From IMG/VR virus record IMGVR_UViG_3300045282_000227, positions 1 through 64,000 of that record: a DNA stretch of 64,000 nucleotides. One strand, given 5' to 3'. Origin of the DNA: a virus. Shown here one piece after another: positions 2,527 to 25,415 of the stretch. Every line of letters starts with the position of its first letter. The stretch's first letter is position 1. The notes under the pieces are model-generated. The model did no database searches. It was not told the origin of the DNA and was given only the letters and a program-made list of their open reading frames with translations. A program made the position numbers and the translations under genes.

Positions 2527-3615
2527 ATGAAACAATATGCAGACTTGGCCGTATTCATCGGCCGTTTTCAACCACTTCACCTCGGTCATGTTCATGCGAT
2601 CAAGCAGGGTATGACTCACGCCAACCACGTGTTGGTTCTGATGGGTGACACAGGTGGTCCTCGAACAATTAAGAACCCTTGGACCTACGAGGAACGCAAG
2701 CAGATGCTCATGCGTTCGCTCCCGGCCGACTGTGCTTCTGCACCTGACTGCGAGCCGCGTGTCATTATCCGTCGTCTCCAGGACTTCCGTTACCGCGACC
2801 ACGAATGGCTGTCTGAAGTCCATAACCTCGTGAGCTCGACGGCCGAATATCTCGGCGTCGGTGGAAACAAGCCGAAGATCATTCTCATCGGACACGAGAA
2901 AGATGCGTCGAGTTTCTATCTCAAGAAGTTCCCGATGTGGGACTTCGTCGACACTGGCTTCGAAGAGTTCGATGGACAGCACCAGCGTTGCCTCGATGCC
3001 ACAGTCATCCGTGACTTCATCTTCAACAAGCAACTCGGCTACACGGTCGGCGTCCTGTCACGAGAAGTCCGTGATCACATTCACTATCTAGATACCTTGG
3101 ATCCGTCCATCCTCGATGGCATGCGAGTCGAGCGAGAGTTCATTCGCAAGTATCGACAGTCGTGGTCAACAGCACCATTCCCTCCGGTGTTCGTGACGAC
3201 CGATGCCGTTGTCATTCAGTCCGGTCATATTCTCATGATCCGCCGGAAAGACAACCCCGGTGCTGGTCAATGGGCGCTCCCGGGTGGATTCATCGATCAA
3301 ACTGAATCGATCGAAGACTGCTGCATCAGGGAACTGATCGAAGAGACCAACATTCACTTGCAACCAGAAGTCTTGAAGCGCTGCATCACCAATGTCACAG
3401 TGTTCGATCGGGCCGGCGGTGTCTCGTCGGAAGACCGCGGTCGTATCATCACCCATGCGCATCTGATCAAACTCAACGACGAGAAGGACTTTCCGAAAGT
3501 CGTCGGTGGAGATGACGCAGCCGAAGCCGCCTGGATCTCGTTGGGTGAACTGGATCCACGCAAGATCTTTTCTGACCACAACGATATCATCAACGTGATG
3601 CTGGGAAAACTATGA
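2527..3615 (+). CDS. nadM: Bifunctional NMN adenylyltransferase / Nudix hydrolase
   Basis: Two-domain NadM-Nudix protein, 362 aa. The N-terminal domain makes NAD+ from NMN and ATP: it has the nucleotidyltransferase motif GRFQPLHLGH at residues 12-21 and a DATVIR motif near 160 in place of the usual SSTxxR. The C-terminal domain (about 200-355) is a Nudix hydrolase with a complete box from G256 to about 279 (GGFIDQTE...RELIEE); in this family it typically cleaves ADP-ribose. With NadV at 4068 it completes a nicotinamide-to-NAD+ route. Start set by a 13-base ribosome binding element. Length and domain order match known bacterial and phage NadM-Nudix proteins. Confidence 0.93.
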   Translation: MKQYADLAVFIGRFQPLHLGHVHAIKQGMTHANHVLVLMGDTGGPRTIKNPWTYEERKQMLMRSLPADCASAPDCEPRVIIRRLQDFRYRDHEWLSEVHNLVSSTAEYLGVGGNKPKIILIGHEKDASSFYLKKFPMWDFVDTGFEEFDGQHQRCLDATVIRDFIFNKQLGYTVGVLSREVRDHIHYLDTLDPSILDGMRVEREFIRKYRQSWSTAPFPPVFVTTDAVVIQSGHILMIRRKDNPGAGQWALPGGFIDQTESIEDCCIRELIEETNIHLQPEVLKRCITNVTVFDRAGGVSSEDRGRIITHAHLIKLNDEKDFPKVVGGDDAAEAAWISLGELDPRKIFSDHNDIINVMLGKL

Positions 3616-3830
3616 AAATCTATCTGATGGAAAAGGCTTGGTGCGATCCTCTGGAGAACAGGAACGACTTCGGATACAAGATGGTCGGCTATGTTGGCAG
3701 TGAAGACGTGGCCAAAGAGATCGTTGCCGAAGCTGGTTTTCTCCGTGGCGATGAGACCTGGTCACTCAGCTTCGCAAAGCCAAACACAATCCCAGTAATG
3801 CGTTATTCAGAACTGATGCCGTACAAGTAA
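3612..3830 (+). CDS. Small protein of unknown function (72 aa)
   Basis: Not recognised. ATG 3612 overlaps the stop of nadM by four bases (ATGA), so the two are translationally coupled. It is a mixed alpha/beta small soluble protein with no metal-binding motif. The position inside the NAD block may mean a linked role, but nothing in the sequence shows it. Confidence 0.8.
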   Translation: MKIYLMEKAWCDPLENRNDFGYKMVGYVGSEDVAKEIVAEAGFLRGDETWSLSFAKPNTIPVMRYSELMPYK

Positions 3831-3841
3831 GGAGTGTTCCG

Positions 3842-4045
3842 ATGGGAATGGCAACATCAGACGACGAAGAAAAGATCTACCGAGATCATGCTCGGAAGAA
3901 ACACTTGAAGGACATTCCCAAGAATCCTAACACATGGGATCACCGTGCGACGGAAGATGAACGTGCATATTACATACACGATCTAGAAGAGTGGGCGGCG
4001 AATTTGCCAGACGACCGCGCGTGGGAAAACTACGGCAATCGATAA
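3842..4045 (+). CDS. Small acidic protein of unknown function (67 aa)
   Basis: Not recognised. Starts at ATG 3842 after TAAGGAGTGTTCC, a variant of the ribosome binding element used by the NAD genes. The sequence is highly charged and Trp-containing (THE motifs WDHRATEDERAYYI and LEEWAANLPDD), probably helical and soluble. It lies between nadM and nadV and is likely co-transcribed with them. Confidence 0.78.
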   Translation: MGMATSDDEEKIYRDHARKKHLKDIPKNPNTWDHRATEDERAYYIHDLEEWAANLPDDRAWENYGNR

Positions 4046-4053
4046 ACATCACA

Positions 4054-4066
4054 GGAAGGAGTTTCC
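4054..4066 (+). promoter_or_regulatory. Conserved ribosome binding element GGAAGGAGTTTCC, copy 3
   Basis: Exact third copy, one base before the nadV ATG at 4068. The GGAG is six bases plus from the start codon, an optimal distance. Confidence 0.7.
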
Positions 4067-4067
4067 T

Positions 4068-5501
4068 ATGAACCAGATTCTCAGCACTGACAGTTACAAG
4101 TTCTCCCATTTCATGCAGTATCCACCGGGAACGACAGACGTCTCGAGTTACATCGAGGCCCGTGGAACCAAGTTACCGAACGTCAAGGAGCTCGTCTTCC
4201 TTGGACTTCAGAGTTACATCAAAGACCGTCTCATGAAGCCGGTCACCATGGCCGATGTACGTGAAGCCGAAACATTCTGTTCCAAACACGGAGTTCCATT
4301 CAATGTCGAAGGTTGGACGACCATCGTTCGAGATCATGGCGGATTTCTTCCGATCAAGATCACTGCAGTACCAGAGGGCACGGTTGTTCCACTTGGAAAT
4401 ATGCTTGTACAAGTTCACACTCTGGACGAGCGCTTGCCTTGGTTGACCAGCTATGTCGAGACGGACATCTTGCGTTACGTCTGGTATCCGAGCACAGTCG
4501 GAACTGTGAGCCGCGAGATCAAGAAGATCATCAAGGCTGGCCTCGATGTGAGCTCAGACATTCCAGATGTCGTCCTTCCGTTCAAGTTGCATGACTTCGG
4601 CTACCGAGGCGTCTCGAGCACCGAATCGGCTGCACGTGGTGGCTTTGCGCATCTCGTGAACTTCCTCGGGACCGACACCGTCGCTGGCATCGAACATGCG
4701 ATTGAGTTCTATGACGCAGATGTCTGTGCATATTCGATCAGTGCTTCCGAGCATAGCACGATGACCTCGTGGGGTCAGGATTACGAATACGAAGCCTACG
4801 CGAACATGGTGAAGCAGTATGCCAAGAAGGGCGCCATTTTCGCGTGTGTCATTGACAGTTACGACACATTGAACGCCATAGACCTCTGGACACTGCCGCA
4901 ACGGGGCCAGAAGAGCCTGACCGATCAAGTCAAGGAAGCCGGTGCAACGGTCGTCCTGCGTCCCGACTCTGGTCATCCGGTTGACATGCCGGTTCTGGTC
5001 GTGGACACTTTGCTGCGGCGCTTGAGGAAGGAAGGCAAAGTCAACGAGAAGGGCTTCGCGGTTCTCCCAGATCATGTTCGTGTCATCCAGGGCGACGGCA
5101 TCGACATGCACGACGTCAAGAACATTCTCGACAAACTAATCGCCGCAAAGAACAGTACCGAAAACATCGGCTTCGGCATGGGTGGTGGTCTGCTCCAGAA
5201 GTGCGACCGCGACACATTCAAGTTCGCAATGAAGTGCAACGCGATCGAGATCGACGGTGAATGGCGTGCAGTATTCAAGGATCCGATCACCGACAAGGGC
5301 AAGGCTTCCAAGCGCGGACGCCAGGTTCTCCTGCGCCACAAGGAGACGAAGGAGTTCGTGACCGTGCGTGTCGAGTTGGGTGCTGATCTACGACTCGGTG
5401 GTTGGATCTCTGCAACCGAAGTGATGTTCAGTTCATATGCCGGGACAGTGAGGACCAATTTCACGACACTTGACAAGATTCGTGAAAGGGCGGCACTCTA
5501 A
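4068..5501 (+). CDS. nadV: Nicotinamide phosphoribosyltransferase
   Basis: A 477-residue NAMPT/NadV enzyme that joins nicotinamide and PRPP to give NMN. The family landmarks are present in order: the N-terminal TDSYKFSHFMQYP, the active-site loop ASEHSTMTSWG with the catalytic His, RPDSGHP (PRPP/phosphate binding; many homologues have RPDSGDP), GDGID and GFGMGGGLLQ near the C-terminus. Length is typical. NMN can pass to NadM (2527). In phages this pair has been described as an NAD+ rebuilding pathway that defeats NAD-depleting defences. It begins after a conserved ribosome binding element and its stop codon lies within a late promoter core (5499). Confidence 0.96.
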   Translation: MNQILSTDSYKFSHFMQYPPGTTDVSSYIEARGTKLPNVKELVFLGLQSYIKDRLMKPVTMADVREAETFCSKHGVPFNVEGWTTIVRDHGGFLPIKITAVPEGTVVPLGNMLVQVHTLDERLPWLTSYVETDILRYVWYPSTVGTVSREIKKIIKAGLDVSSDIPDVVLPFKLHDFGYRGVSSTESAARGGFAHLVNFLGTDTVAGIEHAIEFYDADVCAYSISASEHSTMTSWGQDYEYEAYANMVKQYAKKGAIFACVIDSYDTLNAIDLWTLPQRGQKSLTDQVKEAGATVVLRPDSGHPVDMPVLVVDTLLRRLRKEGKVNEKGFAVLPDHVRVIQGDGIDMHDVKNILDKLIAAKNSTENIGFGMGGGLLQKCDRDTFKFAMKCNAIEIDGEWRAVFKDPITDKGKASKRGRQVLLRHKETKEFVTVRVELGADLRLGGWISATEVMFSSYAGTVRTNFTTLDKIRERAAL

Positions 5502-5504
5502 ATA
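5497..5504 (+). promoter_or_regulatory. Late promoter core TCTAAATA
   Basis: TCTAAATA overlaps the nadV stop codon and lies 6 bases before the tRNA-Thr gene, so tRNA-Thr and the secreted protein at 5607 could be expressed late. Confidence 0.45.
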
Positions 5505-5510
5505 CTAGAC

Positions 5511-5584
5511 GCTCTGTTAGTATAGTGGTAGTACAGGTGTTTCGTAAGCACTTGGCGTAGGTTCGATTCCTACACGGAGCTCCA
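5511..5584 (+). tRNA. tRNA-Thr (CGU)
   Basis: Acceptor GCTCTGT pairs with ACGGAGC, loop TTCGTAA gives anticodon CGT, T arm GTAGG TTCGATT CCTAC, discriminator T and encoded CCA. It should read ACG. It stands apart from the main tRNA cluster, just after nadV. Confidence 0.9.
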
Positions 5585-5606
5585 ATTGACATTGAGGAGA
5601 AGTGAT

Positions 5607-5819
5607 ATGAAGCTGTCGTTCGTCGGCGTCGTTCTAGGTTTCGTCCTTGGAGTATCGAGCACAGTTCTCGCTACCACCGATCACTTCACCATCAACGGTG
5701 ACAATCAATGCGATCACTATACAATGGTCGTCGTGGCAACAGGTGAAGCCAATGCACAAGGCAAGCGCTATCCGGCCATGGAAGTCCTCTTGGTACCAAA
5801 GTGTGGGCGTTCTGCATAG
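5607..5819 (+). CDS. Small exported protein of unknown function (70 aa)
   Basis: ATG 5607 follows GAGGAGAAGTGAT, a good ribosome binding site, and begins a clear signal peptide or membrane anchor (MKLSFVGVVLGFVLGVSSTVLA), with a possible cleavage after VLA. The remaining roughly 45 residues contain two Cys that could form a disulphide in the periplasm. Function unknown. Confidence 0.78.
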   Translation: MKLSFVGVVLGFVLGVSSTVLATTDHFTINGDNQCDHYTMVVVATGEANAQGKRYPAMEVLLVPKCGRSA

Positions 5820-5825
5820 AAACAC

Positions 5826-5854
5826 TTGACTTCTTCCACGTAACACTATATCAT
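5826..5854 (+). promoter_or_regulatory. Sigma70-like promoter TTGACT-17-TATCAT
   Basis: -35 at 5826-5831, -10 at 5849-5854, exactly 17 apart. The ATG at 5861 lies 6 bases after the -10 box, so the transcript is expected to start at or within a base or two of it. Confidence 0.72.
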
Positions 5855-5860
5855 CGTTGT

Positions 5861-6289
5861 ATGAATAAGAGCTTCAATATGCACTCACTCAGGAAGTTCT
5901 GGTACGAACAGATTTCGTGTCGCATCTGGCCACGTCAGAAGTGGTTGACGAAGCAGATTCCCAAGACCTGGCAAGACAAGGATGGACTCATCGAGGATCT
6001 TGTCTTTGCGTGCCTGGTCAACTTCTGGGAAGCTGAGGACGGCGAAGAGTCCCTCCGTCTTCAGTATATCGATCCTGACAATCGTCTCAGTGATGAGCGA
6101 CGTGCAAAATTCCGCGACATCTACCAGAGACTGAACAAAGCCTACTTCTGGGCGGTCTCTCGTAAGGCATTGTGGGACGACCCAACTCTTTCACCGAAGG
6201 AATTGGTCGAGCAAGAAGCTGTTCTCACCGAGAAAGATTCGTATTTTCTCAAAGAAATCATCGAACTACGTGAATACCTCTGGACCTAG
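5861..6289 (+). CDS. Protein of unknown function (142 aa), leaderless start
   Basis: Not recognised. A Trp-rich, charged, probably helical soluble protein (FWYEQISCRIWPRQKW near the start, WEAEDGEESLRLQYIDP in the middle). ATG 5861 is preferred because it lies exactly 6 bases after a strong TATCAT -10 box, as at 13065, 19539 and 26238; ATG 5879 is an alternative. There is no ribosome binding site upstream of 5861. The acidic C-terminal half has helices ending EIIELREYLWT. Confidence 0.8.
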   Translation: MNKSFNMHSLRKFWYEQISCRIWPRQKWLTKQIPKTWQDKDGLIEDLVFACLVNFWEAEDGEESLRLQYIDPDNRLSDERRAKFRDIYQRLNKAYFWAVSRKALWDDPTLSPKELVEQEAVLTEKDSYFLKEIIELREYLWT

Positions 6290-6300
6290 GAGAATTGAAC

Positions 6301-6534
6301 ATGAGTGTCACTGACCAGCCGATCGAAGAGCTCGACAAGATCAAGCAGCTCGAAGCCATCGTCGAGAAGATTTCGGCTCTCGATACACAGAGAGGCAAGG
6401 CTATCGACGAGATCAACGACGCACTCCAAGGCGTCGAAATCACCGAGGAGCTGCAAGATCGCCTCCAAGACCTCGCCTACGACATCGGCATGGAATGGGA
6501 CGGCGAGCAGTTCTGGGAACCGTCGACCTGCTAA
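6301..6534 (+). CDS. Small coiled-coil protein ending FWEPSTC (77 aa)
   Basis: First of three neighbouring small genes whose products end in a shared motif. ATG 6301 follows CTAGGAGAATTGAAC. Residues 8-70 look like helical coiled coil (IEELDKIKQLEAIVEKISAL). The last nine residues EQFWEPSTC end in Cys and match VQFWKPSSC of the next gene and, loosely, SILWQNSGC of the third. Function unknown; the C-terminal Cys could be a modification or crosslinking site. Confidence 0.82.
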   Translation: MSVTDQPIEELDKIKQLEAIVEKISALDTQRGKAIDEINDALQGVEITEELQDRLQDLAYDIGMEWDGEQFWEPSTC

Positions 6535-6544
6535 GGAGCAGAAC

Positions 6545-6778
6545 ATGAGCGAGAAACTTGAAAGGCTTCACCTGATCGCCGATCAACTTCGGGCACTTCA
6601 AGTCCAGAAGAACGACATCGTCCGCGAGTTGAAAGAGCAGACGAAGGACCTCGACGTGAGCGCGGAGACCGAGGAGAACGAAGAGCTCTTGGACGTCTTG
6701 GAAGACATTGCGTCCTGGGCCGATCTGGAACTGTCAACCCGTTCAAAGGTACAATTCTGGAAACCGTCAAGCTGCTAA
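6545..6778 (+). CDS. Small coiled-coil protein ending FWKPSSC (77 aa)
   Basis: Paralogue of the preceding gene: same length, helical body (LHLIADQLRALQVQKNDIV) and C-terminal VQFWKPSSC. It starts at ATG 6545 after AAGGAGCAGAAC, 10 bases behind the previous stop, and is probably in the same message. Function unknown. Confidence 0.82.
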   Translation: MSEKLERLHLIADQLRALQVQKNDIVRELKEQTKDLDVSAETEENEELLDVLEDIASWADLELSTRSKVQFWKPSSC

Positions 6779-6783
6779 GGTGC

Positions 6784-6812
6784 TTGACATCTGAGTAACA
6801 TTATCGTACAAT
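6784..6812 (+). promoter_or_regulatory. Sigma70-like promoter TTGACA-17-TACAAT
   Basis: -35 at 6784-6789 and -10 at 6807-6812, immediately followed by the palindrome at 6813. It should drive 6842 and the genes after it. Confidence 0.72.
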
Positions 6813-6829
6813 CTGGTTACGTTAACCAG
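6813..6829 (+). promoter_or_regulatory. Palindrome CTGGTTA-CGT-TAACCAG at the transcription start
   Basis: A perfect 7-bp inverted repeat with a 3-base centre begins at the base after the -10 box. It would lie at about +1 to +17 of the message. It may be an operator or a protective 5' hairpin. Confidence 0.5.
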
Positions 6830-6841
6830 TGGGACAGAACG

Positions 6842-7030
6842 ATGAACAAGAAAGCCAAACTTGATGCTATCGTTGAAGGCCTGGCCGAAGCTGCACAGGC
6901 CGGTGATGTTGAGGTTCTCGGCCTCCCGAAAGAAGATCCACAGTGGGAAGCTTCAGACTGCATCGAAGAATGGTACCAGTCCGATTCGTGCACCGACGAA
7001 TCCATCCTCTGGCAAAACTCAGGTTGCTAA
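6842..7030 (+). CDS. Small acidic protein ending LWQNSGC (62 aa)
   Basis: Third member of the Trp/Ser/Cys-tail group. The N-terminal KAKLDAIVEGLAEAA resembles the helix of the first member (LEAIVEKI). The acidic centre holds three Trp and further Cys, and the product ends SILWQNSGC. It has its own promoter with a palindrome at the start site. The ribosome binding site is weak (GGGACAG). Function unknown. Confidence 0.78.
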   Translation: MNKKAKLDAIVEGLAEAAQAGDVEVLGLPKEDPQWEASDCIEEWYQSDSCTDESILWQNSGC

Positions 7031-7034
7031 AACC

Positions 7035-7508
7035 ATGAAGAAGATTGACGAACAAGAGTTACGTGACTTCATGATCAATATGAGTCCTGAGACCAAGATT
7101 TACTTTGGTGCAGACTCGGAGCGATTCAAGCAGAACGGAAGATGGTTCGCAAAGATCGTCACGGTCATCGTCGTGCACATCGAAGGTTGCAAGGGTTGCA
7201 AGATCTTTGCCGAGTCGACTACAATTCCTGACATCGACAAGGACTCAAGCAAGCCCTTCCAGAGAATGATGGCCGAAGCATCTGCCGTGGCTGACCTGCA
7301 CGCTCGCTTCAAGGACGTCTTCTATGACTTCGAAGTCTCGATCCACTTGGACGTCAACCCTCGCAAGACAGCTGGTTCAAGTGTCGCGAAAGAAGCCGCC
7401 GTTGGATACATCAAGGCAATGACTCAGGTCACTCCTGAGTTGAAGCCTCTGGCATTCGCTGCATCATACGCTGCCGACCGTAGCGTCGACCTTGGGATAT
7501 GCAAATGA
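7035..7508 (+). CDS. YkuK-family RNase H-like protein (DUF458)
   Basis: 157 aa. The N-terminal strand KIYFGADSERF with an invariant Asp, the KGCKIFAEST segment and the conserved HLDVNP(R)KxxxS followed by a helix and GY match the YkuK/DUF458 family, which is predicted to have an RNase H fold. Asp in GADS and in HLDVN would be metal ligands. Family activity is not established, so nuclease function is inference. ATG 7035 begins 4 bases after the preceding stop. Confidence 0.75.
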   Translation: MKKIDEQELRDFMINMSPETKIYFGADSERFKQNGRWFAKIVTVIVVHIEGCKGCKIFAESTTIPDIDKDSSKPFQRMMAEASAVADLHARFKDVFYDFEVSIHLDVNPRKTAGSSVAKEAAVGYIKAMTQVTPELKPLAFAASYAADRSVDLGICK

Positions 7509-8053
7509 GTGATCTCACAACACAAATCAACAACTGCGAATCGTTGCTGAAATTCTTAGATCAGATCATCCCGTCTTCTTTCAATGGCGGAATGTTCAGC
7601 AAGCGCGATGTGACTGCTGGCTGTGCAATTCACTGGGCATACAAGTCGAGAAAACTGACGCTCGGCGTACTGTCGGCCATATCCAACTCGCGTGAAACGG
7701 GTGGTGGTGTAATTTCGGAACCAGAAGTCATTGCTGCTTTCGAAGAGAGCTATGGACAAGGATCACCCGATCTCTTCGATAACATTGCGTGTCACTGTGG
7801 AAAGGACATCAACGAGTTCCGAACCTGTCTCAAAGAACACATACAAGATCTGAGAAATAGGCGACGCACCAAGAGCTGGGAGGAACCCGAAGTCAAAGTT
7901 CCTTGGAATTCGAGCTTCGTCGTTCGATACAATGATGTACAATATCTATTCACCGATCGCAAGGTGATGGATGCTGAATTGGCAATCCTAAAGAAATTCC
8001 GTCCAGATGCCAATCCAAAGATCTTCGAATACCAGTTGGTGGAAGTCAAATGA
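7505..8053 (+). CDS. Protein of unknown function (182 aa)
   Basis: Not recognised. ATG 7505 overlaps the stop of the YkuK-like gene (ATGA); an ATG at 7499 in frame is also possible. A mixed alpha/beta soluble protein with two Cys (IACHCGKDINEFRTCL) near residue 100. It overlaps the ParB-like gene by four bases, so the three genes are translated as a unit. Confidence 0.8.
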   Translation: MSDLTTQINNCESLLKFLDQIIPSSFNGGMFSKRDVTAGCAIHWAYKSRKLTLGVLSAISNSRETGGGVISEPEVIAAFEESYGQGSPDLFDNIACHCGKDINEFRTCLKEHIQDLRNRRRTKSWEEPEVKVPWNSSFVVRYNDVQYLFTDRKVMDAELAILKKFRPDANPKIFEYQLVEVK

Positions 8054-8472
8054 TTGTGAACTGGAAGAAGGACTCTTTTGTTAACGAGGAGGAAGAGTTC
8101 CAGCTCGTTGCTACCGAACTGACCAAGAGTTCGGACCACAAAGAGTGGACTCGGAACTTCGAGAAACTGAAGTCGGCCTATCGAAACGGCAAGTTCATGA
8201 AACTCTCCGATGCTTTCTGGCGCCGCCTCGAGAACACCGATTCCTTCAAAGTCAAGACGATGAAGGATATCGAGAAGTTCATCACCACGAATTCTGGTGA
8301 TTCTGGTGCGCGTGACATCTACGAGGTGATCAAAGAGATCGTCTCTGGCGTCTGTCGTGCACCGATCGTCATGAAGAAAGACAGCAAGTACACCTTGGTC
8401 GCCGGCAATGCACGGCTCATGGCAGCAAGACTCTTGGGAATCAGACCAGACGTCATCGTGATGGCGATCTGA
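8050..8472 (+). CDS. ParB/sulfiredoxin-like domain protein (140 aa)
   Basis: The C-terminal 45 residues contain the ParB-like signature: APIVMKKDSKYTLVAGNARL followed by MAARLLGIRPDVIVM, matching the GN(T/H)RLMAARALGI motif of ParB/Srx-fold proteins common in phages. That fold binds nucleotides (CTP or ATP). The N-terminal 85 residues are charged and helical. No helix-turn-helix of true ParB is seen, so a partition role is unlikely. Coupled by ATGA to the previous gene. Confidence 0.72.
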   Translation: MIVNWKKDSFVNEEEEFQLVATELTKSSDHKEWTRNFEKLKSAYRNGKFMKLSDAFWRRLENTDSFKVKTMKDIEKFITTNSGDSGARDIYEVIKEIVSGVCRAPIVMKKDSKYTLVAGNARLMAARLLGIRPDVIVMAI

Positions 8473-8480
8473 CATTTTAC

Positions 8481-8509
8481 TTGACTCCACTCGTCAGACA
8501 TTATACTAT
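8481..8509 (+). promoter_or_regulatory. Sigma70-like promoter TTGACT, -10 TACTAT or TATACT
   Basis: -35 at 8481-8486. TACTAT at 8504-8509 gives a 17-base spacer; the better hexamer TATACT at 8502 gives 15. It precedes the gene at 8535, which has its own ribosome binding site GAGAGG. Confidence 0.65.
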
Positions 8510-8534
8510 GTCAAGACGTAGAGAGGTGTCAGAT

Positions 8535-8693
8535 ATGAATCGCAGTGAGCAGCAAAACAAAGAGATCGAAAGTATCCGGTGGCAACTGGAGCAACTTCGA
8601 GCAGACGGTTTCAACGAGGATAGTGAGCAGGTCTCGTATCTTGAAGATCGTTTGAACGTCCTCTTGTACTGCCAAGACCTGTACCCAGCATGA
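8535..8693 (+). CDS. Small helical protein of unknown function (52 aa)
   Basis: MNRSEQQNKEIESIRWQL...: almost entirely predicted helix with a coiled-coil pattern, ending CQDLYPA. ATG 8535 follows GAGAGGTGTCAGAT. Overlaps the next start by four bases (ATGA). Confidence 0.75.
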   Translation: MNRSEQQNKEIESIRWQLEQLRADGFNEDSEQVSYLEDRLNVLLYCQDLYPA

Positions 8694-8965
8694 GGCGCGT
8701 CGTCTGTGCTGCCAATCGGTTTGAAAAGGTCATTGTCGTCGGACCCAGACATTATGACATGACGATGCATCGTCAGATCGAGAAGTACAGGTTCGTCGGT
8801 GTCATCAGCAATCGTGAATGCCCTGAACAAGGCTTCATCGACCAGCATGGTGTGTTCATGGATCGGAAAGAAGCACTTGAAGTGGCTCTGGCGGCTGGAC
8901 AGATATTGGATATCAAGAAGAAGTGTCACCCCACCAACGAACTCTTCTCTGAAGACATCTACTGA
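8690..8965 (+). CDS. Conserved phage protein of unknown function (91 aa)
   Basis: The sequence RVVCAANRF...VVGPRHYDMTMHRQIE and EQGFIDQHGVFMDRKEALEVA with a final GQI segment matches a small protein type I recognise from many phages, often written as a hypothetical protein. The catalytic role, if any, is unknown. The conserved Cys, His and Asp might bind a metal or nucleotide. Coupled to 8535 upstream. Confidence 0.75.
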   Translation: MRRVVCAANRFEKVIVVGPRHYDMTMHRQIEKYRFVGVISNRECPEQGFIDQHGVFMDRKEALEVALAAGQILDIKKKCHPTNELFSEDIY

Positions 8966-8966
8966 C

Positions 8967-9740
8967 ATGAGCATCAAATTCGGTCTAGCATCCGACCTCC
9001 ACATGGACTTCAAGCCATTGAACCCCGAGTTCTTTGACTGGCGTGGTGATGTCTTGCTCTTGGCTGGTGACCTCGCCGAAGAGGCGCACCTGTGCAAGCA
9101 GAAAGGTTTCTGGGAGAAGGTATCCCAGATGGCCGATCAGGTCCTTGTCATCGCTGGCAACCATGAACATTACCGTGGCGCCATCGACAAGACACACAAG
9201 CACGTTAGTGCTGCGATCAGTGGTCATCGGAACATCTGCTTCATGGAAGATGCATTCTTCCATCTCGACAGTGTCATCGTGTTCGGTTCGACCTTCTGGT
9301 CTGACCTGAGCAACCCACTGTCTGCCTTGCACGTCGAAGGCGGTCTGAACGACTACAAGCAGATTCGTGTGGCCGCGAGGAACTATTCGCGACTCAGGAC
9401 TCACGACACGAATAGCAGGCACCAGAAGTCCAAGTATATCTTGGACGAGATACTGAATAAGAATGCCGACACTGACTTCGTGGTGATGACACATCACGCG
9501 CCGAGCTTCCAGAGCATTCACCCAGATTTCAAGTCTGACCACCGCAATGCAGGATATGCAACCGAGTTGTATGACTGGGTCGCCAACCGCAAGAACATCA
9601 AGGCTTGGGTCCACGGTCACATCCACTACAAGTTCGATTACATGATCGAACAGTGTCGCGTGATGTGCAATGCTCGTGGTTATCCGAACGAGCGTCCGTC
9701 TTTCCTTCCACCGTATCAACCCTTCGACTTCGAGGTGTAA
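8967..9740 (+). CDS. Calcineurin-like metallophosphoesterase (257 aa)
   Basis: Two-metal phosphoesterase fold. The motifs run in order: ASDLHMD (residues 6-12, DxH), LLLAGDLAEE (GDxx), IAGNHEHY (GNHE), VVMTHHAP (H) and WVHGHIHYKFD (GHxH). Substrate unknown; related phage enzymes act on nucleotides or nucleic acid ends. ATG 8967 lies two bases after the preceding stop. A second, different member of this superfamily is at 13397. Confidence 0.9.
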   Translation: MSIKFGLASDLHMDFKPLNPEFFDWRGDVLLLAGDLAEEAHLCKQKGFWEKVSQMADQVLVIAGNHEHYRGAIDKTHKHVSAAISGHRNICFMEDAFFHLDSVIVFGSTFWSDLSNPLSALHVEGGLNDYKQIRVAARNYSRLRTHDTNSRHQKSKYILDEILNKNADTDFVVMTHHAPSFQSIHPDFKSDHRNAGYATELYDWVANRKNIKAWVHGHIHYKFDYMIEQCRVMCNARGYPNERPSFLPPYQPFDFEV

Positions 9741-9741
9741 T

Positions 9742-9861
9742 ATGCTTGACAAATTCAACCAGGTCATCGACTATCTGTGGATGGGCTTCTTCCGCGTGAT
9801 CGTCGCATGTGGTCCAGACGACTACAAGAAGAAGATGAAGGACCTTGGATGGCCTCAGTGA
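9742..9861 (+). CDS. Very small protein (39 aa)
   Basis: MLDKFNQVIDYLWMGFFRVIV...: an amphipathic or membrane-facing helix followed by a basic end (DDYKKKMKDLGWPQ). ATG 9742 follows GAGGTG, 5 bases upstream. Overlaps the next gene by 13 bases. Function unknown; short enough to be doubtful but well placed between coupled genes. Confidence 0.6.
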   Translation: MLDKFNQVIDYLWMGFFRVIVACGPDDYKKKMKDLGWPQ

Positions 9862-10370
9862 GATGGTATTCGACCGAGTATAACGAGCCGCTCGATGGGC
9901 AGAATTATGGCTCTGGTTGCTATGCCACCGCCGAGACACTCGCCGATGTCGTGAACAAGCGCGGCCTCGGCGAACGCCAGATGTTCGCGTCTGATGTCTA
10001 TCCAGAGAGGGGTTGGCCGCTTCCTTCGAAGACCATCAAGGAATTGCATCTCGGCGCACCCGTGTCGACCCTGAAAGAACTCTTACACACTGCCATGTGG
10101 GTGGGTTACCAGGCCACCAAAGCTGATCCCAAGGGCGTCGACCTAGCATTCGGCGACAAAGGGGTCGTCCACGAGTTGGTCCATATCATCAACGATCTTG
10201 GCTTCACGGACTACGAATACCGAGAACTCCACAAACACTGCCTCGAACTTGAATTGCTGGTGCCAGGCTTGTTGAACGAAGCCGAACAGACAGAGCATTG
10301 GTTTGAGTTGACATCCGAGTCAAGGCGTCGTACAATAAATCAAACCAAGGAATCAAATGAATCAGTTTGA
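9849..10370 (+). CDS. Protein of unknown function (173 aa)
   Basis: Not recognised. ATG 9849 overlaps the preceding gene; GTG 9858 in the same frame is an alternative. A soluble alpha/beta protein; the central part has KGVVHELVHIINDLGF, which contains HExxH-like spacing only as HELVH (H-E-L-V-H), a possible zinc site with no further support. It runs through the promoter at 10308 and overlaps the next start by 14 bases. Confidence 0.75.
   Translation: MASVRWYSTEYNEPLDGQNYGSGCYATAETLADVVNKRGLGERQMFASDVYPERGWPLPSKTIKELHLGAPVSTLKELLHTAMWVGYQATKADPKGVDLAFGDKGVVHELVHIINDLGFTDYEYRELHKHCLELELLVPGLLNEAEQTEHWFELTSESRRRTINQTKESNESV
10308..10336 (+). promoter_or_regulatory. Sigma70-like promoter TTGACA-17-TACAAT
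   Basis: Lies inside the 3' end of the preceding gene. -35 at 10308-10313, -10 at 10331-10336. The next ATG (10357) is 20 bases downstream with AAGGA in between. Confidence 0.7.
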
Positions 10371-10608
10371 CCAGCGTGCGTGGATTTTCCAGACGAAGAA
10401 AGGCGCGAAACAGGTCTTCTTCACTCTCTCCGAAGCACAAGATTTCTTGAAAGATTCGACGACATCGGGTGAGTTCGTCGGCGTCATGGAACAAAGGTAC
10501 GTCGAGAAGCGATTCAAGAGTCTTCCGATTTCGATGTGGTGGCTTGGCGATGAACTGAAGGCCGCACAACCCGAAGCACTGAACAAAGCAAGAAGGATCT
10601 GTGGCTGA
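10357..10608 (+). CDS. Small basic protein of unknown function (83 aa)
   Basis: Not recognised. ATG 10357 follows CCAAGGAATCAA and its own promoter. Aromatic and basic sequence with a possible beta-strand start (RAWIFQTKKGAKQVFFTL) and an EAQDFL helix. Confidence 0.78.
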   Translation: MNQFDQRAWIFQTKKGAKQVFFTLSEAQDFLKDSTTSGEFVGVMEQRYVEKRFKSLPISMWWLGDELKAAQPEALNKARRICG

Positions 10609-10828
10609 TATGAACAAGTTGAAAGATATGGTCGCCGATGGCAAGAAGGTCATCTTCCAGTACTACAGGAAGGGTGAACTCTGGTATGCCACCGAGTGCG
10701 GCTTCAATTTCCCTGTTCCCATCGAAGACACAGGTGAGGCGTTCTTCAAGAACGAAGACCGAGCCTTGTACTTCATGCGCTGGATCATGCGACATATCAA
10801 GTTCCTCGAAAAGGCCAAGGAAGCATAA
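10601..10828 (+). CDS. Small protein of unknown function (75 aa)
   Basis: GTG 10601 or ATG 10610 starts this gene; AAGGA at 10594 is close to the GTG and rather far from the ATG, so the longer form is given. The product is alpha/beta with many aromatic residues (KKVIFQYYRKGELWYATE) and a basic C-terminal helix. Looks similar in style to the preceding protein. Function unknown. Confidence 0.72.
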   Translation: MADMNKLKDMVADGKKVIFQYYRKGELWYATECGFNFPVPIEDTGEAFFKNEDRALYFMRWIMRHIKFLEKAKEA

Positions 10829-11809: not shown

Positions 11810-11818
11810 GGATTCATT

Positions 11819-12834: not shown

Positions 12835-12843
12835 GAGAAAGAG

Positions 12844-13023: not shown

Positions 13024-13029
13024 AATCGC

Positions 13030-13058: not shown

Positions 13059-13064
13059 CTGTGA

Positions 13065-14887: not shown

Positions 14888-14901
14888 CTCGAGAGATCAA
14901 A

Positions 14902-15276: not shown

Positions 15277-15279
15277 GAC

Positions 15280-15411: not shown

Positions 15412-15421
15412 GGAGAACGAA

Positions 15422-16023: not shown

Positions 16024-16048
16024 CATCTGATATACATTATCGTACAAT
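16020..16048 (+). promoter_or_regulatory. Sigma70-like promoter TTGACA-17-TACAAT
   Basis: -35 at 16020-16025 contains the TGA stop of the previous gene; -10 at 16043-16048. It drives the polynucleotide kinase gene. Confidence 0.74.
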
Positions 16049-16075
16049 CAGAACACATTGAAGTAGGACTGTAAG

Positions 16076-17310: not shown

Positions 17311-17495
17311 TGCCGATCTACGAATTTCAATGTAAGGTCTGTGGGAAGCGTTATGAGGTCTTACAGCGCTATGACGATCCGCTGCCGAAGTGTTCATGTG
17401 GTCTCACAGACGAAAGAATGGATCGCTTGATCTCTGCCGGGAACTTTGAACTCAAAGGCACCGGTTGGTACAAGACAGATTTCAAAGGAGGCTAG
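17310..17495 (+). CDS. FmdB-type zinc ribbon protein (61 aa)
   Basis: MPIYEFQCKVCGKRYEVL is the classic start of FmdB/CxxC regulatory zinc ribbons, followed by the second half of the ribbon, KCSCG (residues 28-32). The four Cys would bind one zinc. Family members are thought to regulate or assist other proteins; the phage role is unknown. Confidence 0.85.
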   Translation: MPIYEFQCKVCGKRYEVLQRYDDPLPKCSCGLTDERMDRLISAGNFELKGTGWYKTDFKGG

Positions 17496-17497
17496 AC

Positions 17498-17713
17498 ATG
17501 CGTTGGGTGAATCCAGAAGCGAAAGAAGGTGATTGTCGCGATCGTTCGGGCTTCCTTTGGACTCGGAAGACGAACATCATCACCAAAGAAACTCGTTGGC
17601 TCGAATTCGCTAGCTGGCGAGAGGTCTACACGTCGTCCAAGAATGGATACTATTGGGCTGTCGTCTGGTGGCACGACCAGGAAGGAATTACAGGATTTCT
17701 GTTGACAACGTAG
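17498..17713 (+). CDS. Small Trp-rich protein of unknown function (71 aa)
   Basis: ATG 17498 follows AAAGGAGGCTAGAC, an almost ideal ribosome binding site that overlaps the end of the FmdB gene. Beta-rich and very Trp-rich (ETRWLEFASWREVY, YYWAVVWWHD). The next promoter overlaps its 3' end. Confidence 0.76.
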   Translation: MRWVNPEAKEGDCRDRSGFLWTRKTNIITKETRWLEFASWREVYTSSKNGYYWAVVWWHDQEGITGFLLTT

Positions 17714-17730
17714 TCGGAATACTCTATACT
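17702..17730 (+). promoter_or_regulatory. Sigma70-like promoter TTGACA-17-TATACT
   Basis: -35 at 17702-17707 inside the 3' end of the preceding gene, -10 at 17725-17730. Transcription should begin near 17737, just before two close ATG codons (17739, 17751). Confidence 0.72.
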
Positions 17731-17750
17731 ATATCTAAATGGAGACGACA

Positions 17751-17993
17751 ATGGACAAGATCAGAATCGAACCGCTAACGCTTTCAACAGGCGAGCATTC
17801 CGAGACTGAACGAGTCGTAGTCGAGTCCATTTCGAGGCATGTAGATCGAGTCTGGACAGGTTCCAGGAGTATCGACTATCACGATGTCTATACCGAACAG
17901 TTCAGAGACGACGAGGCCGAGGCATATTGCAAAGCCTGGGCTCCGATCTGGAAAGATCAGAAACCCTTCCCAATTGGTTCACGCTTCGACTAG
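17751..17993 (+). CDS. Small acidic protein of unknown function (80 aa)
   Basis: Two starts are possible. ATG 17751 has GGAGA 5 bases upstream and is given here; ATG 17739 (METTM...) would be almost leaderless. The product is soluble and acidic with aromatic residues (DYHDVYTEQFRDDEAEAY). Not recognised. Confidence 0.74.
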   Translation: MDKIRIEPLTLSTGEHSETERVVVESISRHVDRVWTGSRSIDYHDVYTEQFRDDEAEAYCKAWAPIWKDQKPFPIGSRFD

Positions 17994-18003
17994 GAGTTTC
18001 AAA

Positions 18004-18204
18004 ATGGCCGACAAGAATATGTTCCTCGTGACTGCAGGATGGCGCAAAGGGCAGATCGGTGAAAAGGTCTCGCACTACTCCGCCAAGAAATACACCTGGT
18101 ATGTCATGCGCTTCCCGAACGAGGACATGCTCGCGCACATCCAAATCGAGCACGTAGTCCGTGCACCGAAACCGGCCGAAGTGGTCGAAGAACCCAAAGT
18201 CTGA
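18004..18204 (+). CDS. Small beta-rich protein of unknown function (66 aa)
   Basis: ATG 18004 follows CTAGGAGTTTCAAA. The sequence KNMFLVTAGWRKGQIGEKV... KYTWYVMRFPNEDMLAHIQIEHVV has the look of a small SH3/KOW-like barrel with a Pro/Glu tail. Function unknown. Confidence 0.75.
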   Translation: MADKNMFLVTAGWRKGQIGEKVSHYSAKKYTWYVMRFPNEDMLAHIQIEHVVRAPKPAEVVEEPKV

Positions 18205-18214
18205 GGAGACTGAC

Positions 18215-19204
18215 ATGGCACATGAATTATCCATCCGCGAAAACGGTTTCGCCGAAATGGCATTCACTGGCTCGCGAGACGCAATCTGGCACGGTCTTGG
18301 TCAGAGCATCAAACCCGATGCCTCACTCGATGAGTGGAAGAAAGAAGCCGGCATGGACTGGGAAGTCCACGAAAGCCCGGGTAGCTATACTCGAGTGGTC
18401 GGTACCACAACCGAACAGCTTCAGATTCCCGATCGCAAGGTTCTCTTCCGCTCGGACAACGGCGCGATGCTCGGCATGGTCGGCACCGAGTTCAAGGTCG
18501 TCAACCCAGGCACCGTGATCGACTTCTTCAAGGACCTGGTCGAGCAGTTCGGCTTCCGTCTCAGCACGGCAGGTTGCCTGTTCGGTGGCAAGAAGTTTTG
18601 GGCCCTGGCAGACACCGGCAAGTCGGGTGAAGTCAGCACCGGTGACCGGATCGATGGTCACTTGCTCCTGACCACCGCAGTCGACGGCACGATGTCGACG
18701 CAAGGTCGATTCACAAGCACCCGAGTGGTTTGCAATAACACACTCAGCATTGCACTTTCTGGAGTCAGCGCCCGTCCCATCGTCCGAGTCACTCACAAGC
18801 GTGACTTCGATGCATCGGCCGTGAAGATCGATCTCGGTGTCATCGACAAGGGCTGGGTCCAGTTCATGGACAACATGAAGAAGCTCTCGAACACGAAGAT
18901 GGGCCCGACCCAGACTCGTGACTTCTTCGAAGAGCAACTGTTCGACCCGGACCGTTCCAAGAACGACCAAACCTGGTCCATCCAGCGTGAAGTGGATCGC
19001 TTGATCAACCTGGCGCTCAGTGGCTCGGGTAGTGACATGTCCAAAGGCACGGCCTATGGTGCTCTCAATGCGGTCACGGAGTACTTCACCCATGGTACTG
19101 GTCGCCGTGAAGCATCGCGACAGTTCTGGGATGCATACGCCGGCGCCGGCGATTCGAAGAAGCAGGTCCTGTACCGCGCTCTGATGCGTAAGGTAGCGGC
19201 ATGA
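18215..19204 (+). CDS. DUF932 phage/plasmid protein (329 aa)
   Basis: The N-terminal motif TGSRDAIWHGLGQSI and the internal TRVVCNNTLSIALSG are the hallmarks of DUF932 (phage/plasmid-like protein family). Family length is about 300-400 aa. The role is unproven; members are found on plasmids and phages and some have been linked to protection from host restriction, which I regard as inference here. ATG 18215 follows GAGGAGACTGAC. Overlaps the next start by four bases. Confidence 0.85.
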   Translation: MAHELSIRENGFAEMAFTGSRDAIWHGLGQSIKPDASLDEWKKEAGMDWEVHESPGSYTRVVGTTTEQLQIPDRKVLFRSDNGAMLGMVGTEFKVVNPGTVIDFFKDLVEQFGFRLSTAGCLFGGKKFWALADTGKSGEVSTGDRIDGHLLLTTAVDGTMSTQGRFTSTRVVCNNTLSIALSGVSARPIVRVTHKRDFDASAVKIDLGVIDKGWVQFMDNMKKLSNTKMGPTQTRDFFEEQLFDPDRSKNDQTWSIQREVDRLINLALSGSGSDMSKGTAYGALNAVTEYFTHGTGRREASRQFWDAYAGAGDSKKQVLYRALMRKVAA

Positions 19205-19296
19205 CCGACATCGTGCTCAAGATCATCGCCTTCGCGGTGGTCTTGGGTCTCGGGGCCTTGTGGTTCTATGTCAAAGGAAATCGAAGTGACGACTAA
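19201..19296 (+). CDS. Very small membrane protein (31 aa)
   Basis: MTDIVLKIIAFAVVLGLGALWFYV with KGNRSDD at the end: one membrane helix and a short charged tail. ATG 19201 overlaps the DUF932 stop (ATGA), and its end overlaps 19268 by 29 bases. Supported by coupling and composition only. Confidence 0.6.
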   Translation: MTDIVLKIIAFAVVLGLGALWFYVKGNRSDD

Positions 19297-19507
19297 ATTC
19301 CAACAGGCAAATGCGTACGATCTCCTTTGCCTCATGTTCGTTTACCTGAAACTGTCACATCAGGTCGACTGGTCGTGGTGGTGGATCATGCTGCCGTGGT
19401 ATGGCCAGATCGCGATCATGTTCTTCGCAGAAATCTTCGCACACGTGTACGCCGAAAGTCAAGGAAAGATTTCAATCGTCGATTTACTTCGCAAAGAAAA
19501 AGGTTGA
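19268..19507 (+). CDS. Small membrane protein (79 aa)
   Basis: The centre (residues 36-65, WSWWWIMLPWYGQIAIMFFA) is a strong membrane segment, with an earlier hydrophobic stretch YDLLCLMFVYLKL. The end is charged. Its stop TGA is inside the next -35 box. Function unknown. Confidence 0.75.
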   Translation: MSKEIEVTTKFQQANAYDLLCLMFVYLKLSHQVDWSWWWIMLPWYGQIAIMFFAEIFAHVYAESQGKISIVDLLRKEKG

Positions 19508-19532
19508 CTTCTGATTCGGGATACAGTATCAT
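19504..19532 (+). promoter_or_regulatory. Sigma70-like promoter TTGACT-17-TATCAT
   Basis: -35 at 19504-19509, -10 at 19527-19532. ATG 19539 is 6 bases downstream, so the message is expected to be leaderless. Confidence 0.72.
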
Positions 19533-19538
19533 TTGAGA

Positions 19539-19772
19539 ATGGAAAAGAAACGTCTAACGCTAAAGAAAGTGAACAGCGAATTGAAATCGCTCGGTTTGTC
19601 CGTTGAACTTGTCCAAGGTCGCGGATATTTCTACTTCTCGGGTGAAGACGTTTTGACCTGTCGCATGGAAACTGGTGTCTATGGTGCGGGTCAGCAGTTG
19701 AACAACCTGACCCTTGACCAATGGATCGAAGAGGCTCGTGAGCGAGCCGAAGACGCAAAGGCCAATCAATGA
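19539..19772 (+). CDS. Small protein of unknown function (77 aa), leaderless start
   Basis: ATG 19539 lies exactly 6 bases after TATCAT. Alpha/beta protein: a basic helix (KKRLTLKKVNSELKSLGL), beta strands (ELVQGRGYFYFSGEDVL) and a C-terminal acidic helix. The GYFYF strand is reminiscent of small DNA/RNA-binding proteins. Not recognised. Confidence 0.76.
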   Translation: MEKKRLTLKKVNSELKSLGLSVELVQGRGYFYFSGEDVLTCRMETGVYGAGQQLNNLTLDQWIEEARERAEDAKANQ

Positions 19773-19805
19773 AATCGTTTTCTATCCGATGATCAAAACC
19801 AAGTA

Positions 19806-20222
19806 ATGGACAAGTTCGTGACCAAACTCGTATTCCACAAAGACGGCACACTTCCCATCGGAGACGAGATCTTTGTCTTCGGATCGAATTTTGCGGGCAT
19901 TCACGGAGCCGGTGCGGCTCGAGTGGCGTACGATTCGTTCGGAGCCAAATGGGGCGAAGGTGAGGGCGTGACAGGTGATTGCTATGCGATCCCGACCAAG
20001 GACTACTCGCTCAAGACTCTCCCGCTTCGTGCCATAGAACTTGCGATCCTGGCGTTCTGTGACGAGGCCGCTCGGTGGAAGCACACCGATGTCTACTTCG
20101 TGACCCGAGTCGGCTGTGGTCTGGCTGGCTACAAGGACTCAGACATAGCACCGCTCTTCAAGAAGTGCATGCAGAGCACCAACTTCGACTTCCCTGAGAA
20201 CTGGAAGGAATACTTGTTATGA
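19806..20222 (+). CDS. Macro-domain-like protein (138 aa)
   Basis: The pattern EIFVFGSNFAGIHGAGAARVA, then YAIPTKD, and VTRVGCGLAGYKDSDIAPLF is that of a short family of macro-domain-like phage and bacterial proteins. FGSN...HGAGAA corresponds to the macro motif that binds ADP-ribose, and GCGLAGY to the second phosphate loop. Likely substrate: an ADP-ribose derivative (inference). In this phage the same theme recurs with Nudix, SLOG and NADAR proteins. ATG 19806; the upstream sequence lacks a good ribosome binding site. Confidence 0.72.
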   Translation: MDKFVTKLVFHKDGTLPIGDEIFVFGSNFAGIHGAGAARVAYDSFGAKWGEGEGVTGDCYAIPTKDYSLKTLPLRAIELAILAFCDEAARWKHTDVYFVTRVGCGLAGYKDSDIAPLFKKCMQSTNFDFPENWKEYLL

Positions 20223-24021: not shown

Positions 24022-24323
24022 CCTACGAATATGTGGGTCAGTTCCTCCTCGTAGTCTTGTTGATGGCGGTTGTCGATGTCTGCTATGCGAGGTACACTCT
24101 CGAGATGGTCGCCAAGCGTGCAATGCCGGCGGCCCTCTGGTCTGGATCGATCATGGCGTGCGGATCATTCGTCACGGTGAACTATGTCCACGACCGGACG
24201 TTCATCTTCGCTGCCATCCTCGGTGCCTTCATTGGTACATACTACACCATCCTACATTCAAACAGGAACGACGATGAACCAGCAGCTACAGAAATTGGTG
24301 GCCACCATGGAACTGCGGTTTAA
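24018..24323 (+). CDS. Membrane protein of the DUF2061/holin-like type (101 aa)
   Basis: GTG start overlapping the thyX stop. Three hydrophobic segments: residues 5-23 (GQFLLVVLLMAVVDVCYA), 38-55 (PAALWSGSIMACGSFVTV) and 63-80 (TFIFAAILGAFIGTYYTI), then a polar tail. Similar small membrane proteins occur in phages near nucleotide genes; function unknown. Confidence 0.72.
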   Translation: MTYEYVGQFLLVVLLMAVVDVCYARYTLEMVAKRAMPAALWSGSIMACGSFVTVNYVHDRTFIFAAILGAFIGTYYTILHSNRNDDEPAATEIGGHHGTAV

Positions 24324-24438
24324 GTCAGGGAACTCGGTTCCTGTCGAGCGCGCCTATATCAAGCCAGAAGAGTGGGCGCTGGTCCGTCAGCAACTCCAAG
24401 TAGCGGATGGTCTGATCATGCTTGCGTTGAAGAAATGA
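24274..24438 (+). CDS. Small protein of unknown function (54 aa)
   Basis: ATG 24274 within the end of the preceding gene, after CAGGAACGACG. Helical and basic-hydrophobic, with SVPVERAYIKPEEWALV. Overlaps the next start by four bases, which supports translation. Confidence 0.68.
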   Translation: MNQQLQKLVATMELRFKSGNSVPVERAYIKPEEWALVRQQLQVADGLIMLALKK

Positions 24439-24803
24439 AAATCCTAGTAACCGGCGGTCGCGACTTCACAGGACGAGATCTTGTCAAGAAGACTCTTCTC
24501 GAGTTCGTCACTATCTTTGGACGACCAGAACTCCTGATCCACGGCGGTGCACGCGGTGCGGATACCATCTGCGGTGAAGAGGCCACGAAGCTCGGTATCA
24601 GAACTCTAGTGGTTCTGCCAGATTGGGAAAGGTTCAAACACACCGCGGCCATCCTGCGCAACCAAGAGATGGTTGACATGAAACCCGACTTCCTTCTCCC
24701 GTTTCCCGGTGGAAGTGGAACTCGAGATTGCATGAAAAGGGCCAAGAAAGCAGGCATTCCTTTCTACCAGTACCAAGAGCCGCTAGACGATAATTTCTTT
24801 TGA
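24435..24803 (+). CDS. YspA-type SLOG protein (DUF2493)
   Basis: 122 aa. The pattern KILVTGGRDFTGRDLV, LIHGGARGADTICGEEA and a late Pro-rich GGSGTRDCMKRAKKAG fits the YspA/DUF2493 branch of the SLOG Rossmann-like superfamily. SLOG domains bind nucleotides; in bacterial defence systems some sense NAD-derived cyclic ADP-ribose. Comparative genomics has linked YspA proteins with NADAR and macro domains in ADP-ribose networks, and here a NADAR gene lies directly downstream. Confidence 0.85.
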   Translation: MKILVTGGRDFTGRDLVKKTLLEFVTIFGRPELLIHGGARGADTICGEEATKLGIRTLVVLPDWERFKHTAAILRNQEMVDMKPDFLLPFPGGSGTRDCMKRAKKAGIPFYQYQEPLDDNFF

Positions 24804-24931
24804 AGTTTCCTTGTAAGTCATTGAAATCCATTGACAAACACGATTTAGACTCCGTTTGGCATTTTCAATAGAATCAATGGGTTAGCGAGTGAAAAGATTT
24901 ATGACCAGAACGCAAATACAACACATTCTTC

Positions 24932-24939
24932 TCTAAATA
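24932..24939 (+). promoter_or_regulatory. Late promoter core TCTAAATA before the NADAR gene
   Basis: The last A of the core is 6 bases before ATG 24945, so the expected start site is the A of the start codon. There is no ribosome binding site in between. Confidence 0.55.
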
Positions 24940-24944
24940 CACGG

Positions 24945-25415
24945 ATGAAGAAGATTGTTGAGTTCAGGCATCAATACAATTGGTTGAGTAATTTCTTTGC
25001 CTCACCGATCGAGTCTGCCTGTGGCCTAACCTTCCCAACGGCTGAACATTGCTACCAGGCACAGAAGTCTCTGAACCCAGAGATCCATCTTCTGATGTCG
25101 AAATTGTGCTTCCCCTCACACGCCAAGAAGTTCGGACAGACAATCAGGATTCGCCCAGGTTGGATGGACTGCAGAGTTGCCGTCATGCGCAACGTGATTG
25201 AGGCCAAGTTCGAACAGCATCCCGTCCTTGCAAACTGCCTTGTGAATACAGACGATGCCGAACTGATTGAGGGCAACGAATGGGGTGATCGCTTCTGGGG
25301 TGTGTACAACGGCGAAGGCGAGAACTGGCTCGGAAGGATTCTGATGGAACGCCGTTCGATTCTTCAAGGTAAGATCCCGAGCCTCCCGTGGGAAACAATA
25401 TCTCGACGTTCTTGA
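24945..25415 (+). CDS. NADAR (YbiA-like) N-glycosidase
   Basis: 156 aa. The family landmarks are visible: FRHQYNWLSNFFASPI, TAEHCYQAQKSL, a central WMDCRVAVMRNVIEAKFEQHP helix and the WGDRFWGVYNGEGENWLGRILM motif near the C-terminus. NADAR proteins cut N-glycosidic bonds; recent work shows members that remove ADP-ribose from guanine in DNA and so undo DarT toxins. The gene follows a SLOG gene and starts 5 bases after a late core. Confidence 0.88.
   Translation: MKKIVEFRHQYNWLSNFFASPIESACGLTFPTAEHCYQAQKSLNPEIHLLMSKLCFPSHAKKFGQTIRIRPGWMDCRVAVMRNVIEAKFEQHPVLANCLVNTDDAELIEGNEWGDRFWGVYNGEGENWLGRILMERRSILQGKIPSLPWETISRRS

Follow-up and report, generated by a model that had tools for sequence, protein, structure and literature searches.

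Does a phage that carries five proteins of nicotinamide adenine dinucleotide (NAD+) and ADP-ribose metabolism use them as one counter-defence system, or are they separate acquisitions? The question is raised by IMG/VR virus record IMGVR_UViG_3300045282_000227, of whose 66,012 bases we analysed a stretch of 64.0 kb, here called the window. An earlier note on this DNA had listed a NadM-Nudix fusion, NadV, a macro-like protein, a YspA-type SLOG protein and a NADAR protein, and had proposed that all five act together. The five open reading frames (ORFs) were found where that note had placed them, all on the plus strand (Table 1), and all five identities proved correct, by family searches and motifs for four and by fold and profile comparison for the macro-like protein. 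For the set as a whole, we consider it probable that a two-gene NAD+ salvage unit and three ADP-ribose-family proteins are independently exchanged modules and not one system.

We favour this reading because the genes lie in three locations, promoter candidates stand between them and their families seldom meet in unrelated records. The three locations span 23 kb and are separated by other genes, with several candidate promoters of the sigma70 type in the intervals. In 15 unrelated large virus records that have the family of the macro-like protein (the 19806 protein, after its start), NadV was found in one, the YAcAr SLOG family in two and NADAR in three; Acidovorax phage ACP17, a sixteenth record, was left out of this count. 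These values are not above the frequencies given for medium and jumbo phages in a 2022 paper (PMC9503650), which are 22-33% for NadV, 19-31% for YAcAr and 48% for NADAR. Multiplying the published frequencies, and assuming 0.6 for NadM given NadV, we estimated that all five would be expected by chance in about 0.5-1.6% of medium and jumbo phages. Weighing against independence are the small size of the sample of 15, the possible incompleteness of some of its records, and the co-occurrence of Macro, NADAR, SLOG and Nudix domains above chance in DNA viruses (PMC9503650), which argues against full independence of the modules.

An integrated five-part layer, in which NadV and NadM refill NAD+ while the macro, SLOG and NADAR proteins strip signals and adducts, appears quite improbable to us. 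All five families are present here and in ACP17 (at 1786 for NADAR, 110608 for the macro protein, 112266 for NadM, 113287 for NadV and 126021 for YAcAr), four are present in Xanthomonas phage X1, and KVP40 has NadM, NadV, YAcAr, a PF01661 macro protein and a weak NADAR match. Set against this are the scattered layout, the low counts among unrelated carriers and the finding that E. coli YbiA and the T4 NADAR gave no protection from DarT1 in cells (PMC11125620). Joint action was unsupported except for the NadM-NadV pair: the remaining three genes lie apart, in unrelated phages the macro gene does not follow the other families, and in relatives NADAR is found with QueD or an RNA ligase.

Table 1. 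Genes and promoter candidates considered in the window, with the basis of each assignment
Feature	Positions	Strand	Length	Basis
NadM-Nudix, bifunctional nicotinamide mononucleotide (NMN) adenylyltransferase / ADP-ribose pyrophosphatase-type Nudix	2527..3615	+	362 aa	family searches, motifs
NadV, nicotinamide phosphoribosyltransferase	4068..5501	+	477 aa	family searches, motifs
Macrodomain (modelled fold), A1S_2505 / phrog_2072 / N4 gp14 family	19806..20222	+	138 aa	profile comparison, AlphaFold2, Foldseek
YAcAr (YspA-type) SLOG protein	24435..24803	+	122 aa	PF10686, motifs
NADAR, YbiA type	24945..25415	+	156 aa	Pfam, motifs, solved relative
sigma70-like promoter candidate upstream of NadM	2161..2189	+		consensus match only
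sigma70-like promoter candidate upstream of ORF 19533 and the macrodomain gene	19504..19532	+		consensus match only

The rebuilding of NAD+ is, on sequence grounds, the best-supported function predicted for the set. NadM-Nudix matched the Pfam families CTP_transf_like (2.9e-9) and NUDIX (5.1e-18) and the NCBIfam NMN adenylyltransferase/Nudix model (4e-95; 319 bits, below the strict 397-bit equivalog cut-off), and the match to its best solved relatives, 2qjo and 2qjt, was full-length. It has the motifs GRFQPLHLGH at amino acid (aa) 12 and DATVIR at aa 157, and its Nudix box at aa 254 is intact, with the same G-to-N form as in 2qjt. NadV scored 518 bits against NCBIfam NF006629 (cut-off 405), had 7yqo as best solved relative (2.8e-130) and keeps GTDT (aa 201), SEHST (aa 227) and RPDSG (aa 298). 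The two genes share a strand with two short ORFs between them and are also close to each other in X1 (109627-112638), ACP17 (112278-114663), Moby, DLP6 and RAS14; the NadM protein is 61% identical to its best phage counterpart, that of Stenotrophomonas phage DLP_6. The pair thus appears to be a complete, motif-intact nicotinamide-to-NAD+ route of the published NARP2/KVP40 kind.

From the observed families, folds, intact motifs, gene layout and distribution we infer what the five proteins would do, which substrates the last three would take and what benefit against defences might follow. NadV would join nicotinamide and phosphoribosyl pyrophosphate to give NMN, the NadM domain would adenylate NMN to NAD+, and the fused Nudix domain could clear ADP-ribose. 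NADase defences leave nicotinamide and ADP-ribose behind, so the most likely use of the pair is to refill the NAD+ pool of the infected cell, with a presumed benefit against such defences. PMC12300627 summarises NARP2 as phage rebuilding of NAD+ from alternative metabolites that counters NAD+ depletion, and in PMC9503650 NadV accompanies NadM in every NadM phage. That NadV and NadM rebuild NAD+, as first proposed, is therefore supported by the intact motifs, the gene pairing and the published work, with the activity itself predicted. A point against the defence reading is that the pair could possibly serve nutritional NAD+ salvage without any defence.

The 19806 protein called for other methods. 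It had no match in Pfam, where the cut-off of Macro (PF01661) was not reached, and none among solved structures when searched as a single sequence; single-sequence searches found no macrodomain relatives, and an alignment-based repeat was used instead. It did match NF049995, the 'A1S_2505 family phage non-structural protein' (2.5e-38), and phrog_2072 (1.2e-41). When a profile of 60 relatives was compared with solved structures, TARG1 (E 0.07), the macrodomain protein 5e3b (0.16) and the DarG-containing 7omu (0.75) were among the best matches. Using hhalign, the family aligned over 105 columns with 62 phage macrodomain sequences, themselves relatives of PF01661 matches, at a probability of 92.6 and 4.6e-7; the best of 50 control profiles reached 8.2e-3, the reversed macro profile gave noise, and a MacroD-type profile, which at three sequences was probably too thin, gave no match.

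Structural modelling was in agreement. The AlphaFold2 model of the 19806 protein had a predicted local distance difference test score (pLDDT) of 93.6 and a predicted template-modelling score (pTM) of 0.88, and almost all of its Foldseek matches among solved structures were macrodomains, with template-modelling scores over the query (TMq) of 0.71 for DarG with ADP-ribose (5m3e), 0.70 for TARG1 (2l8r, 4j5s) and up to 0.74 for Chikungunya nsP3. Two of the four top matches by E-value were the Bacteroides proteins of unknown function 2fg1 and 2afc, and among viral models the search also picked up this domain as part of a protein of a crAss-like phage that is named ART-PolyVal-like. As modelled, the family has a macrodomain fold close to DarG and TARG1, with which profile comparison agrees, and the 'macro-like' guess was right even though Pfam has no model for the family. 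Weighing against the assignment, which rests on profile comparison and fold together, is that the family's sequence matches to solved structures are individually weak (E 0.07-0.75).

The protein carries a GSN-x2-G-x-HGAGAA loop at aa 26, Lys65 within PTKD and GCGLAG at aa 103. In the profile alignment to solved structures Lys65 aligned with Lys84 of TARG1. At the position of TARG1 Asp125 the 19806 protein has Ala107; DarG retains the lysine (Lys80) and is without that aspartate (PMC9411070). Most likely the macrodomain would bind or hydrolyse an ADP-ribose adduct through the lysine used by DarG and TARG1.

The family was found in 414 phage records, among them laboratory phage N4, whose gp14 is 52.5% identical to the 19806 protein over the core. 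Of 94 viral members, the window included, 93 have the lysine, whereas the 82 bacterial members have mostly methionine at this position (Met in 62, Lys in 17), and the methionine members form one clade (support 0.99). The long members of the family (n=24, 23 of them from bacterial genomes) contain an ADP-ribosylglycohydrolase in nine cases, a microbial PARG in three, and DUF4326 and a weak DprA/SLOG match in one each. NrtR is an ADP-ribose-sensing regulator family; of 145 bacterial genes in operonic position beside the family, 10 have its DNA-binding (winged-helix) domain, and 12 loci have an NrtR relative on the same strand no more than about 1.1 kb away. At six Bacteroidales loci (L250, L255, L256, L212, L221 and L243), NrtR is followed by a fusion of an ADP-ribosylglycohydrolase or microbial PARG with a 19806-type macrodomain, a candidate host operon for ADP-ribose processing.

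It is conceivable, though we put it forward tentatively, that this is an overlooked macrodomain family in two branches: a phage branch, with lysine, that would undo ADP-ribosylation of host DNA or signals, and a bacterial branch, mostly Bacteroidales and with methionine, often fused to ADP-ribosylglycohydrolase or PARG and often next to NrtR, that would act for the host in this contest. Counting against our main reading of the 19806 protein, such fusions and NrtR neighbours come mainly from bacterial members with methionine, and in the lysine clade NrtR was seen at one Ramlibacter locus (L214) only. The bacterial context matches the systems of ADP-ribosylglycohydrolase plus Nudix regulator predicted in PMC9503650, where coupled Macro domains are mentioned in general; the same source gives Macro in 11% of podoviruses, which suggests that N4-like members may already be counted there. 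DUF4326 was considered as a regular viral neighbour and rejected: it was seen with N4 and in one bacterial fusion, but is missing from the 25 commonest neighbour families in viruses. A useful addition is that the N4 gp14 family can be assigned to the macrodomains and divides by lysine or methionine; in more than 400 sequenced phage records it is mostly labelled 'hypothetical protein'. Recognising it as a macrodomain with the lysine of DarG and TARG1 opens its role to direct tests in E. coli K-12 with the tools available.

NADAR was assigned by Pfam PF08719 (83 bits, cut-off 35.1) and, among solved structures, came closest to 2b3w, which is E. coli YbiA (4.8e-19). It keeps Glu34 and Lys41, in the T-x-EH-x2-Q-x2-K motif, and Glu109 of the last strand, in LIE; the roles of the catalytic residues are described in PMC11543638 and PMC11125620. 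NADARs that were tested take ADP-ribose off guanine in vitro, and in cells antitoxin activity against DarT1 was found for the E. coli C7 and enteropathogenic E. coli (EPEC) members only (PMC11125620). The earlier statement that NADARs remove ADP-ribose from DNA bases thus stands in vitro for tested members, but protection by a phage NADAR of the YbiA type would be conjecture, since neither YbiA nor the T4 NADAR had antitoxin activity against DarT1 in cells. Cleavage of N-glycosidic ADP-ribose or a related ribosyl bond is the most likely activity of this protein. Absence calls made with PF08719 are soft, since the model finds nothing in T4, which carries the divergent NADAR gp30.3 (PMC11125620). 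In the ACP17 record the NADAR gene (L343, 1786-2172) was missed, and a short 'swarming motility' gene is annotated there on the opposite strand.

The neighbours of NADAR make repair or house-cleaning roles possible. Directly after it lies a gene for a QueD / 6-pyruvoyl tetrahydropterin synthase (25467-25973), and the two genes overlap in Stenotrophomonas phage Moby; an RNA ligase gene adjoins NADAR in ACP17 and X1 and is 1.6 kb away here. NadV and NadM might accordingly be ordinary metabolic genes that raise NAD+ for replication, with NADAR as a house-cleaning N-glycosidase acting, like E. coli YbiA, on riboflavin or pterin-type intermediates. We consider this unlikely. The YbiA type of the protein matches the riboflavin-intermediate glycosidase model and the pterin synthase is adjacent both here and in Moby, but NARP2 has been published as working against NADase defences (PMC12300627), and QueC, absent from the window record and without a convincing match in X1, is missing for a full deazaguanine pathway that QueD and NADAR could serve.

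The window also holds an RNA-repair set, formed by a PNKP-type polynucleotide kinase(-phosphatase) (16076-16981), two different RNA ligases (27056-28111 and 36443-37570; PHA02142/RNA_ligase and T4 Rnl1 type) and six tRNA genes (28-295, 1362-1517 and 5511-5584). NADAR, and perhaps the macrodomain, might serve this set, and not counter-signalling, by cleaning ADP-ribose or damaged ribosyl products during repair of tRNA, and a link between NADAR and RNA repair is noted in PMC9503650. Despite the ligase genes beside or near NADAR, we give this explanation little weight: the window record and seven further phages, taken as relatives or for comparison, all lack a KptA 2'-phosphotransferase, so that the classical source of ADP-ribose phosphate is missing and KptA-based repair is ruled out as a supply of substrate, and in Moby NADAR overlaps the QueD gene instead.

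The SLOG protein, which starts at an ATG inside a longer frame, scored 45.8 bits against YAcAr SLOG PF10686 (cut-off 28.2) and has the motifs GGR (aa 7), HGGARGAD (aa 36) and GGSGT (aa 92); against solved structures its sequence gave chance matches only. It would most likely bind or cleave an adenine-ribose signal.

Searched against 50,697 phage records, the first 25 kb of the window matched none closely at the nucleotide level. The window's baseplate gp6 (59461-61242) is 59% identical to that of X1, 57% to those of Stenotrophomonas phages Moby and Mendera and 51% to that of ACP17, and the X1 gene order resembles that of the window in its metallophosphoesterases, polynucleotide kinase, DUF932, 19806 homologue, thymidylate synthase, QueD-type protein and NADAR. 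Because of these identities and this gene order, we identify the window as a fragment of a large T4-like myovirus, kin of X1, the Mendera group of Stenotrophomonas phages and ACP17. PADLOC found no named defence system, its two matches both being to unnamed candidate models. Near its NadM-NadV genes X1 (L017) has an annotated ADP-ribosyltransferase of 1395 aa (508-4695) and an annotated NAD+ synthase (11880-12710); the window record begins past the region matching them. A 326-aa protein at 10829-11809 has an apparent same-order counterpart in X1 (331 aa), neither with a Pfam family. By eye, the ORFs at 1307-2164, 46357-46947 and 58779-59468 resemble GIY-YIG-type homing endonucleases, one of them around a tRNA cluster.

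Strong sigma70-like candidates of the form TTGACA-N17-TACAAT/TATCAT occur on the plus strand at 2161, 5826, 6784, 10308, 13030, 13948, 16020, 17702, 19504, 22585 and 26999; positions 1-20000 hold 29 promoter candidates, compared with 14.0 +/- 3.1 in shuffles. A ribosome-binding-site block, GGAAGGAGTTTCC, is repeated at 2508 before NadM, at 4049 before NadV and at one earlier position, 2232.

Compared with known systems, the toolkit is one more lineage in a published pattern, the general idea of such co-occurring genes having appeared in 2022 (PMC9503650), and the set is already present in the sequenced relative ACP17, a Busanvirus. X1 shares four of the five families in a similar order and adds its annotated NAD+ synthase and large annotated ADP-ribosyltransferase; proteins shared with ACP17 and X1 are about 45-60% identical, and the window represents a distinct, incomplete lineage. 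The SLOG protein keeps the HGGARGAD and GGSGT motifs of the YAcAr/YspA (DUF2493) proteins of large phages, stands alone as in ACP17 and has nothing distinctive. The NADAR keeps the catalytic glutamate and lysine positions of E. coli YbiA and is not of the His type of T4 gp30.3. In N4 the gp14 gene lies two genes from a DUF4326 gene, a neighbour not noted in the window. The 19806 protein is too far in sequence from the ALC1/TARG1/DarG macrodomains for PF01661, is a single domain and has neither a DarT partner nor the C-terminal half of DarG; it is like them in fold (TMq about 0.7), in the ADP-ribose loop and in the lysine at TARG1 Lys84 / DarG Lys80, and like DarG it is without the aspartate of TARG1. 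The closest parallel is to NARP2 and KVP40-type salvage: although known here from sequence alone, the window pair has the same two genes, in the order NadM-Nudix then NadV, with intact motifs and in a large myovirus genome.

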